64,000 nucleotides of DNA from Cloacibacillus evryensis DSM 19522. GTDB taxonomy: Bacteria; Synergistota; Synergistia; Synergistales; Synergistaceae. The DNA is taken from the NCBI RefSeq assembly GCF_000585335.1, contig NZ_KK073872.1:2347283-2411282 (forward strand). Direction: 5' to 3'. The notes beneath the pieces are model-generated. The model saw only the letters and a program-made list of their open reading frames with translations, ran no database searches and was not told where the DNA came from. This document shows, one piece after another, positions 8,972 to 11,472 of this stretch. The position numbers and the translations under genes are program-made. The first letter of the stretch is position 1. The number at the start of each line of letters is the position of its first letter.

Positions 8972-9000
8972 TTGACAGGTATTTCCCTAAAGTTTATAAT
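8972..9000 (+). promoter_or_regulatory. Consensus promoter of the metYA leader
   Basis: TTGACA (8972-8977), exactly 17 bases, then TATAAT (8995-9000): both hexamers are perfect sigma-70 consensus. Transcription would begin near 9007, about 25 bases ahead of the leader peptide start. Confidence 0.85.
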
Positions 9001-9031
9001 GCACCATACTATTTCCGGAGGAGGAAGCGTA

Positions 9032-9130
9032 ATGTCAACGACGACAGCAAAGGCCACAGATAAAATGATAATGTGCGTTATGATGCGTGCGCCTGCCTTT
9101 GCAGTCCGGCTGGGCCTTCCGCGCCTGTAA
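9032..9130 (+). CDS. Methionine-rich leader peptide of the metYA attenuator
   Basis: A 32-residue open reading frame, ATG 9032 to TAA 9128-9130, with a strong GGAGGAGGA site at 9017-9025. Codons 12, 14, 17 and 18 are ATG, giving KMIMCVMM, with a cysteine codon at 15; methionine makes up four of seven codons there. It sits 33 bases ahead of a terminator and directly precedes metY-metA. The octamer CTGCCTTT inside its coding part (9093-9100) repeats exactly in the terminator's descending arm. This is the layout of a transcription-attenuation leader whose ribosome stalls when charged Met-tRNA is short. The coding status is inferred from RBS, position and composition. Confidence 0.75.
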   Translation: MSTTTAKATDKMIMCVMMRAPAFAVRLGLPRL

Positions 9131-9199
9131 CCGCGGGAAACGGCCTCAGAAACAAGACTTACAAAGGCAGTCCTCAAACAGACGGGGGCTGCCTTTTTT
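9065..9199 (+). promoter_or_regulatory. Attenuator: antiterminator/terminator switch ahead of metY
   Basis: AAAGGCAG (9163-9170) can pair with CTGCCTTT at 9093-9100 (antiterminator, 9 bp with the flanking G-C) or with the identical CTGCCTTT at 9189-9196 (terminator), but not both. Between them lies a separate hairpin near 9115-9143. A ribosome stalled at Met codons 12 or 14 would leave 9093-9100 free to capture 9163-9170 and so prevent termination. A ribosome finishing the peptide would cover the first octamer and let the terminator form. The pairings are seen in the sequence; the mechanism is inference from the trp/his type. Confidence 0.72.
9163..9199 (+). terminator. Intrinsic terminator of the metYA attenuator
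   Basis: A 13-bp stem AAAGGCAGTCCTC (9163-9175) / GGGGGCTGCCTTT (9184-9196), with some G-T pairs, an 8-base loop, and a six-T run at 9194-9199. It lies upstream of metY, which is what an attenuator needs. Confidence 0.88.
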
Positions 9200-9230
9200 G
9201 TTGTCTATAAAATTCAAGGAGGAATTAATT

Positions 9231-10535
9231 TTGCAGAATCAGAAAAAACTTGACACACTTTGCGTACAGGCCGGCTATACTCCCGGGAACGGAGAACCTC
9301 GCGTGCTTCCGATCTGCCAGAGCACGACCTACAAATTCACCTCCGCGGACGAGCTGGGCGAATTATTCGACCTCAAGACCGAAGGACATATGTACTCACG
9401 CATATCAAACCCCACTGTGGCCGCCGTCGAAGCAAAGATAGCCGCTCTCGAGGGCGGCTCCGGAGCCCTGTGCACCTCCTCCGGACAGGCGGCGACGCTT
9501 CTTTCCGTGCTCAACATCGCCTCGGCGGGACATAACATCATAAGCGCCTCCGCGGTCTACGGCGGAACGATAAATTTATTTGCCGTGACGCTCCGGAAAC
9601 TTGGCATCGAGGTCCGCTTCGTCAGCCAGAATATGACGGACGAGGAAATATCCTCCCTCTTTGACGAAAATACCCGCCTCGTCTTCGGTGAAACGATCGC
9701 GAATCCGGCGCTTGAGGTCTTTGACATCGAACGCTTCGCGAAACTGGCCCACGCGCACAGGGTCCCGCTCATCGTGGACAACACCTTCGCGACGCCGCTG
9801 CTCTGCCGCCCGTTTGAATTCGGCGCGGACGTCGTGACGCACTCCACGTCAAAATATATGGATGGGCACGCCACCGTCGTGGGCGGCGTCATAGTTGACG
9901 GCGGGAAGTTTGACTGGGCCGCGGCCGGCAGGTATCCCGAACTCTGCGCACCGGACGAGTCATACCACGGCGTAGTCTACACGGAGAGTTTCGGCGCGGC
10001 GGCCTATATCACAAAGGCGCGCGTCCAGCTGATGCGCGACCTTGGCGTCACCCCGCAGCCGATGGCCGCCTTCATCCTCAACCTCGGCCTCGAGACGCTG
10101 GCCCTCCGCATCGCGAAACACAGCGCAAACGCGCTCATCATAGCGAAGCGCCTTGAAAGCGAACCGCACGTCGCGTGGGTCAATTATCCGGGGCTCGCTT
10201 CGTCAGACCAGCACGAACGCGCGAAAAAATATCTGCCCAACGGACAGAGCGGCGTCATCTCTTTCGGAGTGAAGGGCGGACGCGCCGCCGCGATGAAATT
10301 CCTCGACTCGCTGAAACTCGCCGCCATCGTCGTCCACGTCGCCGACGCGCGCACCTCCGCGCTTCACCCGGCGAGCACCACGCACCGCCAGCTCGACGAC
10401 GGGCAGCTCGCCGCGTGCGGCATCGGCCCGGAGCTCGTGCGCTTTTCCGTCGGCATAGAAAACCCGGAGGACATTTGGGACGACCTGGTGCAGGCGCTGA
10501 AAAAGACAGAGGGAGCGACCGGCAATGCCGATTAA
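9231..10535 (+). CDS. metY: O-acetylhomoserine sulfhydrylase (Cys/Met metabolism PLP enzyme)
   Basis: A 434-residue PLP enzyme of the gamma family that makes homocysteine from O-acetylhomoserine and sulfide. Visible are [22 protein letters not shown], the IVDNTFATP segment, the PLP lysine in [10 protein letters not shown], and the long MetY insertion around [21 protein letters not shown]. The C-terminus [16 protein letters not shown] and [10 protein letters not shown] are family hallmarks. The TTG start at 9231 follows AAGGAGG by 8 bases; nothing upstream in frame has a better site. It overlaps metA by 11 bases, so the two are coupled. Expression is probably controlled by the leader attenuator. 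No SAM riboswitch or T-box is apparent. Confidence 0.93.
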
Positions 10536-11472
10536 AATACCAGACGGCCTGCCGGCGGCCCAGACACTGAACGGCGAGAACATATTCGTCATGCATGAGA
10601 TCCGTGCCGCAAAACAGGACATACGTCCGCTGCAGGTGGCGCTTTTGAACCTCATGCCGACAAAGATCGCTACAGAGACACAGTTCGCCCGCCTTCTCGG
10701 CAATACGCCGCTTCAGGTGGAGCTGACGCTCCTCCAGACTGCGACCTACGAGGCAAAAAACACCAGCCGCGAACATCTGCTTTCGTTCTATGAAACATTT
10801 GAGGATGTGAAGAATAGAAAGTTCGACGGCCTCGTGATAACTGGCGCACCGGTGGAACTGCTTGAATTTTCCGAAGTGGAATACTGGGACGAGCTTTGCG
10901 CGATAATGGAATGGAGCAAAAGCCACGTCTACAGCACGATGCATATATGCTGGGGCGCTCAGGCGGCGCTTTGCTACCATTACGGCGTGAAAAAATACCC
11001 GCTTGAAAAAAAGCTCTTCGGAGTTTTTGAACACAGCGTCGATTACAAAAATTCCATGCTTTTCCGCGGTTTTGACGACATCTTCATGGCTCCCCACTCG
11101 CGCCACACGACGGTCAGGCGAAGCGAGATAGAGGCCGTCCCCGAGCTACAGATACTTGCCTCCTCAAAGGAAGCCGGCGTCTACACGATAAAGACTGAAA
11201 AGGGGAAACAGTTCTTCGTCATGGGACACACGGAATACGACGCGGATACTCTTGAAAGGGAATACCTGCGCGACAAAAACGCCGGCCTGCCGATAGAAGT
11301 CCCTAAAAATTACTATCCCAACGATGACGACAGCCTTCCGCCGCGCGTCTCATGGAGAAGCAGCGCAAACCTGCTCTTCATTAACTGGCTCAACTATTTC
11401 GTCTACCAGAACACACCATTTGAACTGGAGGCGATCGGCACCACTAGAGAAGACGAGTGGCTGAAGGGCTAA
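10525..11472 (+). CDS. metA: Homoserine O-acyltransferase (MetA family)
   Basis: A 315-residue MetA-family enzyme that activates homoserine with an acyl group. Motifs are [20 protein letters not shown] near residue 40, the nucleophile cysteine in [11 protein letters not shown] (about residue 140), APHSRHT, and the His-Glu pair around FVMGHTEYD. Although named succinyltransferases, many members use acetyl-CoA; pairing with MetY, which takes O-acetylhomoserine, suggests acetyl transfer here (inference). The ATG lies within the end of metY, an 11-base overlap. No clear terminator follows before the converging radA gene. Confidence 0.92.

Follow-up and report, generated by a model that had tools for sequence, protein, structure and literature searches.

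The leader ahead of metY–metA in the window (the whole 64,000-nucleotide stretch of Cloacibacillus evryensis DSM 19522 DNA analysed here) is very probably a ribosome-mediated transcription attenuator for methionine. Sequence and comparison among genomes establish its predicted parts, the conservation of its Met codons, the covariation of its alternative pairing, the spacing relative to the ribosome edge and the association with methionine genes; stalling of the ribosome, the response to methionine and the order of folding are inferred, without expression data. Textbooks describe leader-peptide attenuation for Trp, His, Thr, Leu, Ile/Val and Phe; methionine control is usually attributed to SAM riboswitches, T-boxes or protein repressors.

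An attenuator of the trp/his type calls for a short open reading frame (ORF) with a Shine–Dalgarno (SD) sequence, a cluster of cognate codons in it, an antiterminator conserved by covariation and an intrinsic terminator between the ORF and the first gene. The window leader (all of its features are on the forward strand) starts with a promoter of exact consensus, TTGACA-17-TATAAT (8972–9000; 12/12 matches), which was the sole such site in the 1-kb region scanned (shuffles yield 0.5 sites of at least 9/12). An SD sequence (GGAGGAGGAAG, 9017–9027) and an ORF encoding a 32-residue peptide (MSTTTAKATDKMIMCVMMRAPAFAVRLGLPRL, 9032–9130) follow, so that a short ORF with its SD spans 9017–9130, its translation being predicted from the sequence. 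The putative control codons at 9065–9085 read Met-Ile-Met-Cys-Val-Met-Met (MIMCVMM), with Met at 9065, 9071, 9080 and 9083 (4 of 7 codons), and provide the cognate cluster ahead of metY–metA. The matching cluster in relatives is MMMC, in place of which the predicted window peptide has MIMCVMM; the window leader is in this respect a divergent, atypical member of its family. Between the leader ORF and the first gene lies a predicted intrinsic terminator (9163–9196; stem of 13 pairs, U tract from 9194, −21.2 kcal/mol). The first gene, metY (9231–10535, read from a TTG start at 9231), encodes O-acetylhomoserine sulfhydrylase (TIGR01326, 581 bits, cut-off 495) and is overlapped by metA (10525–11472), which encodes an enzyme of the homoserine O-acetyltransferase type (NF047918 (MetA), 488 bits, cut-off 460.5).

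The leader RNA (fold z = −2.83) can be drawn in alternative pairings. Segment 2 (CTGCCTTTG, 9093–9101), the 5′ strand of the antiterminator, lies inside the ORF and is a perfect 9-bp complement of segment 3 (CAAAGGCAG, 9162–9170), which is both the 5′ arm of the terminator and the 3′ strand of the antiterminator; a match of 9 bp to the fixed arm was reached by just 17 of 3000 dinucleotide-shuffled versions of the window's post-Met ORF segment. Segment 1 (GCAAAGGC, 9047–9054), also within the ORF, pairs with part of the segment 2 region (GCCTTTGC, 9095–9102) in the predicted minimum free energy fold. A preliminary description of this DNA had claimed a perfect promoter, a short ORF with four Met codons in seven and a strong ribosome site, and a terminator followed by metY, all of which were found where it had placed them, with metY confirmed by TIGR01326. 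It had also pointed to an octamer, CTGCCTTT, at 9093–9100 and again at 9189–9196, with a common partner, AAAGGCAG, at 9163–9170; this holds, and the match in the ORF extends to 9 bp. Segment 1 had been overlooked, and its addition completes the 1:2 / 2:3 / 3:4 set. Elsewhere in the window, positions 1025–1319 carry matches to group II intron D1–D4.

We propose that these parts would work as follows. RNA polymerase would start near 9007 (an inferred position) and a ribosome would load on the leader ORF. A shortage of charged tRNA-Met would make this ribosome stall in the Met cluster (9065–9085); under Met limitation the stall is predicted on ATGATGATG, with the 3′ edge of the ribosome ~12 nt past the A site, covering segment 1 and leaving segment 2 (9093–9101) free. 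Segment 2 could then pair with segment 3 (9162–9170) once the latter is transcribed, in which case no terminator would form and metY–metA would be made. When methionine is plentiful, the ribosome would run on and, in most family members, come to rest at the stop codon, where it would cover part of segment 2. The stop codon and segment 2 do not overlap in the window leader, whose segments 1 and 2 probably pair again once the ribosome has passed. Segment 3 would be left for segment 4, and transcription would end after ~195 nt. The same device would control metNIQ, a second metQ and a second metY in the window genome, and met genes across the phylum Synergistota.

Within the family, the window MetY is matched best by that of G021 (82% identity), and the G021 locus repeats the arrangement of promoter, SD, leader with MMMC (MSAYCVKMMMCRLMCSSASLVDSGSMRP), complementary pair, terminator (ending in CTGCCTTTTTT) and metY. 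Its pair, CTGCCTCT/AGAGGCAG compared with CTGCCTTT/AAAGGCAG in the window, carries a compensatory change: at one position of the 2:3 helix, the ORF strand and the terminator strand both differ, giving C–G in place of U–A. Some metY genes elsewhere bear another methionine-type control element or sit within an operon. A DNA search with the window leader returned no match outside its own genome, because the leader diverges too fast.

MMMC leaders seen upstream of other metY genes prompted a search with the pattern ATGATGATGTGY, which gave 74 matches in 53 family genomes (8 for the reversed control pattern) and matches in 127 of the 188 phylum genomes, true leaders and chance matches being mixed in the latter. 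Some matches fell inside long ORFs and were discarded as chance. The recurring anatomy consists of an SD, a short ORF containing MMMC, a segment (for example, GGCTCCTCTTGTGATT), a stop codon and a terminator ~100 nt past the Met run. An SD, a short ORF and a terminator occur together in approximately 75 leaders; the SD was strong in the collected leaders, terminators were detected in 80 of 84 candidates (the window included), and a promoter site of at least 9/12 was present upstream of 54 of 63 non-redundant leaders versus 16% of shuffles. Across Synergistota the leaders precede metY, metNIQ, metQ and metX, and the genes behind representative leaders encode MetY, MetN, MetQ, MetX and one family-3 solute-binding protein. 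The window genome, in which further leaders were sought by pattern, holds four, ahead of metNIQ, a second metQ, a second metY and the window metY: the metN leader (MRFSAGYFANNMMMCMYTQGSSCDLPDA) precedes metN, a permease and a MetQ-like gene, and the leaders of the second metY and of metQ read VGSFSYMRMCMMMCDSGRASLRQ and LINCSSIMYMMMCAHCGSSPEMAGA, respectively. A degenerate ATGATNATGTG search of this genome found no further leader. A leader ahead of metX (L138) reads MTTRQATMMMCAMMMCGNGGSPPGRTGGC. Given that the pattern ATGATGATGTGY builds in Met and Cys, metN orthologues were gathered by protein instead; 19 of the 20 family loci picked in this way (L192–L211) had an MMMC leader, and L207 (genome G005) was the sole locus among them without one. 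A pattern scan over 84,980 species returned 57 stretches, 32 of them in Synergistota and all 32 with an SD, a short ORF and a T run; the remaining 25 fit chance, and none has a recognisable leader ahead of a methionine gene. The alignment among relatives that the preliminary description had called for therefore bears it out, with Met codons and alternative pairing kept in G021 and in dozens of phylum leaders, and the loss of either in close relatives, named there as the refuting outcome, was absent from the nearest one. Its reading as a Met leader-peptide attenuator is supported by the recurrence of anatomy, Met codons and pairing across the phylum, the methionine response itself being inferred.

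Several leaders of this kind were observed in other settings. In L130 (LNRSSHASRFCNFFAMMMCSDPPGA) and also L128, a Met leader lies ahead of a 418-residue protein (L130:123–1376, reverse strand) that had no Pfam or NCBIfam match and is a candidate for an unknown member of methionine metabolism. Another precedes the family-3 solute-binding protein (L163:770–1546, reverse strand), perhaps another methionine or cystine uptake gene. From L227:489 onward, a Met leader (MLWGGFIAFIAAAKMMMCMMRSGSSPGAIGF) is followed by an ORF beginning MSERKYWNEEIETLPRKKLEEVQ, which does not resemble a methionine gene. Ahead of metN-like genes there is also a second subtype of leader, with many Met and Cys residues (for example, MNLNVCALRGICFDYSMMMCMCGLCMHKICAVR; L127, L144, L154, L155, L156, L084 and L178), and its antiterminator is poorly captured by a definition that confines segment 2 to the ORF.

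Covariation of the 2:3 pairing was assessed by exchanging segments among the 63 non-redundant leaders. Own 2:3 duplexes averaged −30.2 kcal/mol versus −21.4 kcal/mol for partners from dissimilar leaders, and 0 of 20,000 permutations matched the observed total (relatedness was not fully removed); 51 of the 63 leaders beat at least 95% of shuffles. In this swap test the window's own duplex was no stronger than many swapped ones. Pairing of segment 2 with segment 1, taken as the SD region, was likewise beyond permutation (0/20,000). The metN alignment had 80% of its antiterminator cells paired, compared with 34–47% when slid, and its columns 37/88 change from U–A to C–G; the swap permutation and this alignment together identify an antiterminator conserved by covariation. 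Covariation within the metN group alone was modest (score of 0.187 versus 0.164 shuffled, 16/500) because segment 2 hardly varies, and the pairing claim therefore rests on the cross-group swap test. RNAalifold recovered the terminator and not the antiterminator from the metN alignment, as expected for mutually exclusive structures.

A stalled ribosome has a footprint that extends ~12 nt past the A site. Counted from the first Met codon, the median start of the first stable helix in segment 2 is +21 nt, which is the expected 3′ edge of a stalled ribosome, and the stop codon of most leaders lies at 48 or 51 nt. With this spacing, a ribosome would just clear segment 2 whichever of the three Met codons it occupied, and one at the stop codon would cover the 3′ part of segment 2. 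In the window the stop codon lies 27 nt beyond segment 2 and a ribosome at the stop would leave segment 2 uncovered, unlike in most relatives.

When the complete leader was folded at equilibrium with a ribosome footprint, the terminator was favoured in nearly every state and the states were barely separated, indicating that the switch needs co-transcriptional timing; truncated transcripts were used in its place and folded as snapshots before arm 4 emerges. In these snapshots of 63 leaders, placing the ribosome at Met gave a mean P(2:3) of 0.61, which fell to 0.12 when it was moved to the stop codon; the direction was as predicted in 55 of the 63 and reversed in 1. Escherichia coli thrL, used as a control, gave 0.74 and 0; E. 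coli trpL and hisL were unsuitable because segment 2 lies outside their ORFs and the definition admits only the ORF. For the window, P(2:3) was 0.89–0.90 with the ribosome at Met 12, 14 or 17 and segment 1 masked, and 0.80 with the ribosome at the stop codon; P(1:2) was 0.80 before segment 3 is transcribed. The off-state of the window leader therefore needs 1:2 to form first, and this step, inferred from modelling, is the weakest link for the window locus.

It remains possible, although we doubt it, that the attenuator reads sulfur amino acids generally, with Cys codons serving as control codons alongside Met. The Met run of the window leader is followed by a Cys codon, as is that of almost every other leader, those of the metN orthologues gathered without the pattern among them; Cys makes up 4.7% of residues outside the start and MMMC, and a ribosome stalled at Cys would also leave segment 2 mostly free. 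Mixed Met and Cys codons also occur in the metL peptide of Streptomyces lividans (PMC8079986). However, the collecting pattern includes TGY and Cys is hence partly built in, the g8 metY leader in L018 has MMMYY and the genes under control are methionine genes. Far less probable is an arrest peptide of the TnaC/SpeFL type, in which the nascent MMMC-GSSP chain, together with ribosome-bound Met or SAM, would cause the stall that sets the RNA switch. Although an MMMC-x-GSSP core is kept at the peptide level in metN, metQ and one metY group, the peptides after Met are wholly different between the metY, metN and window types (GRASLRQ, GSSCDLPDA, RAPAFAVRLGLPRL and GGPPDVV), and neither the window nor G021 has GSSP after Met. 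What is kept is the nucleotide complementarity to segment 3, with a CCTCyCTG-like string in different frames, and the number and order of Met codons vary (MMMCxMMMC and MIMCVMM), as codon sensing predicts.

We give very little credence to a small-molecule riboswitch (for SAM, Met or homocysteine) with an incidental ORF, even though methionine genes are usually riboswitch-controlled and SAM-I is present in 113 of the 188 phylum genomes. Rfam gave no match in the window or the leaders other than separate upstream SAM-I aptamers, SAM-I (RF00162) had none in the window or in its genome, and the T-box (RF00230) had none in the window (eight elsewhere in the genome, three above the cut-off); conservation is concentrated in the SD, the start, the Met run and the stop spacing, as for translation. 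Chance assembly of an ordinary promoter, short ORF and terminator, uncoupled although singly common in genomes, is contradicted by phylum-wide recurrence ahead of Met genes with covarying pairing and can practically be set aside.

Other RNA sensors stand in place of the Met attenuator at some orthologous metY genes. A SAM-I riboswitch adjoins the orthologous metY in G003, G006, G023 and G068, and the metY of G007 has a T-box-like leader instead of a Met leader (L004:1215–1450; 72 bits, below the Rfam cut-off). Six leaders have a complete SAM-I aptamer immediately upstream (L109:1237–1337, L110:1248–1348, L117:1646–1748, L139:39–142, L145:1811–1913 and L146:1826–1930), followed by what appears to be its own terminator and then by the Met leader, before metQ, metY or metX; if both elements work, one operon would be gated by SAM and then by charged tRNA-Met. 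We consider it reasonably likely that Synergistota have a phylum-wide regulon of Met-reading (possibly Met-plus-Cys) attenuators with their own SD as segment 1, in which a resting hairpin silences the leader ORF and favours termination, which are swapped with SAM-I or T-boxes at orthologous genes and which in several genera are stacked behind SAM-I as a two-signal gate. Initiation of the leader itself needs Met-tRNA, which raises the puzzle of how it is translated when Met is scarce. The natural phylum-wide set of leaders makes both this puzzle and the replacement of RNA sensors directly testable, leaders stacked behind SAM-I and orthologous genes under SAM-I or T-boxes being useful cases.

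The mechanism is already known in kind; its use for methionine, its recurrence as a family throughout the phylum, the role of the SD as segment 1 and the stacked arrangement with SAM-I appear to be new, within a partial coverage of the literature. In our literature search, which left most subscription papers uncovered, no such Met attenuator turned up for Synergistota, and Rfam has no family for the Met leader. The nearest precedent found is S. lividans metL, ahead of metNIQ, for which a leader peptide that depends on Met and contains Met and Cys codons has been proposed (PMC8079986). It has a leaderless start, and its authors saw no typical Rho-independent terminator and called termination unclear; its peptide is unrelated, and the accessible portion of the report shows neither alternative pairing nor a cross-species test (PMC8079986).

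Among established RNA sensors, SAM-I (RF00162) controls orthologous metY in relatives, presumably also by transcription termination, but is a ligand-binding aptamer, and the T-box (RF00230) reads tRNA charging as the Met leader would, but binds tRNA directly without translation. The closest likeness is to E. coli trpL, hisL and thrL, which share a leader ORF with a run of end-product codons, three alternative pairings and an intrinsic terminator before the structural genes; thrL also behaves alike in footprint folding. Unlike these trp, his and thr attenuators, the Met leader is predicted to read methionine, places segment 2 inside the ORF just past the control codons, uses its own SD region as segment 1 in most cases and, in some genomes, stands behind a SAM-I riboswitch.
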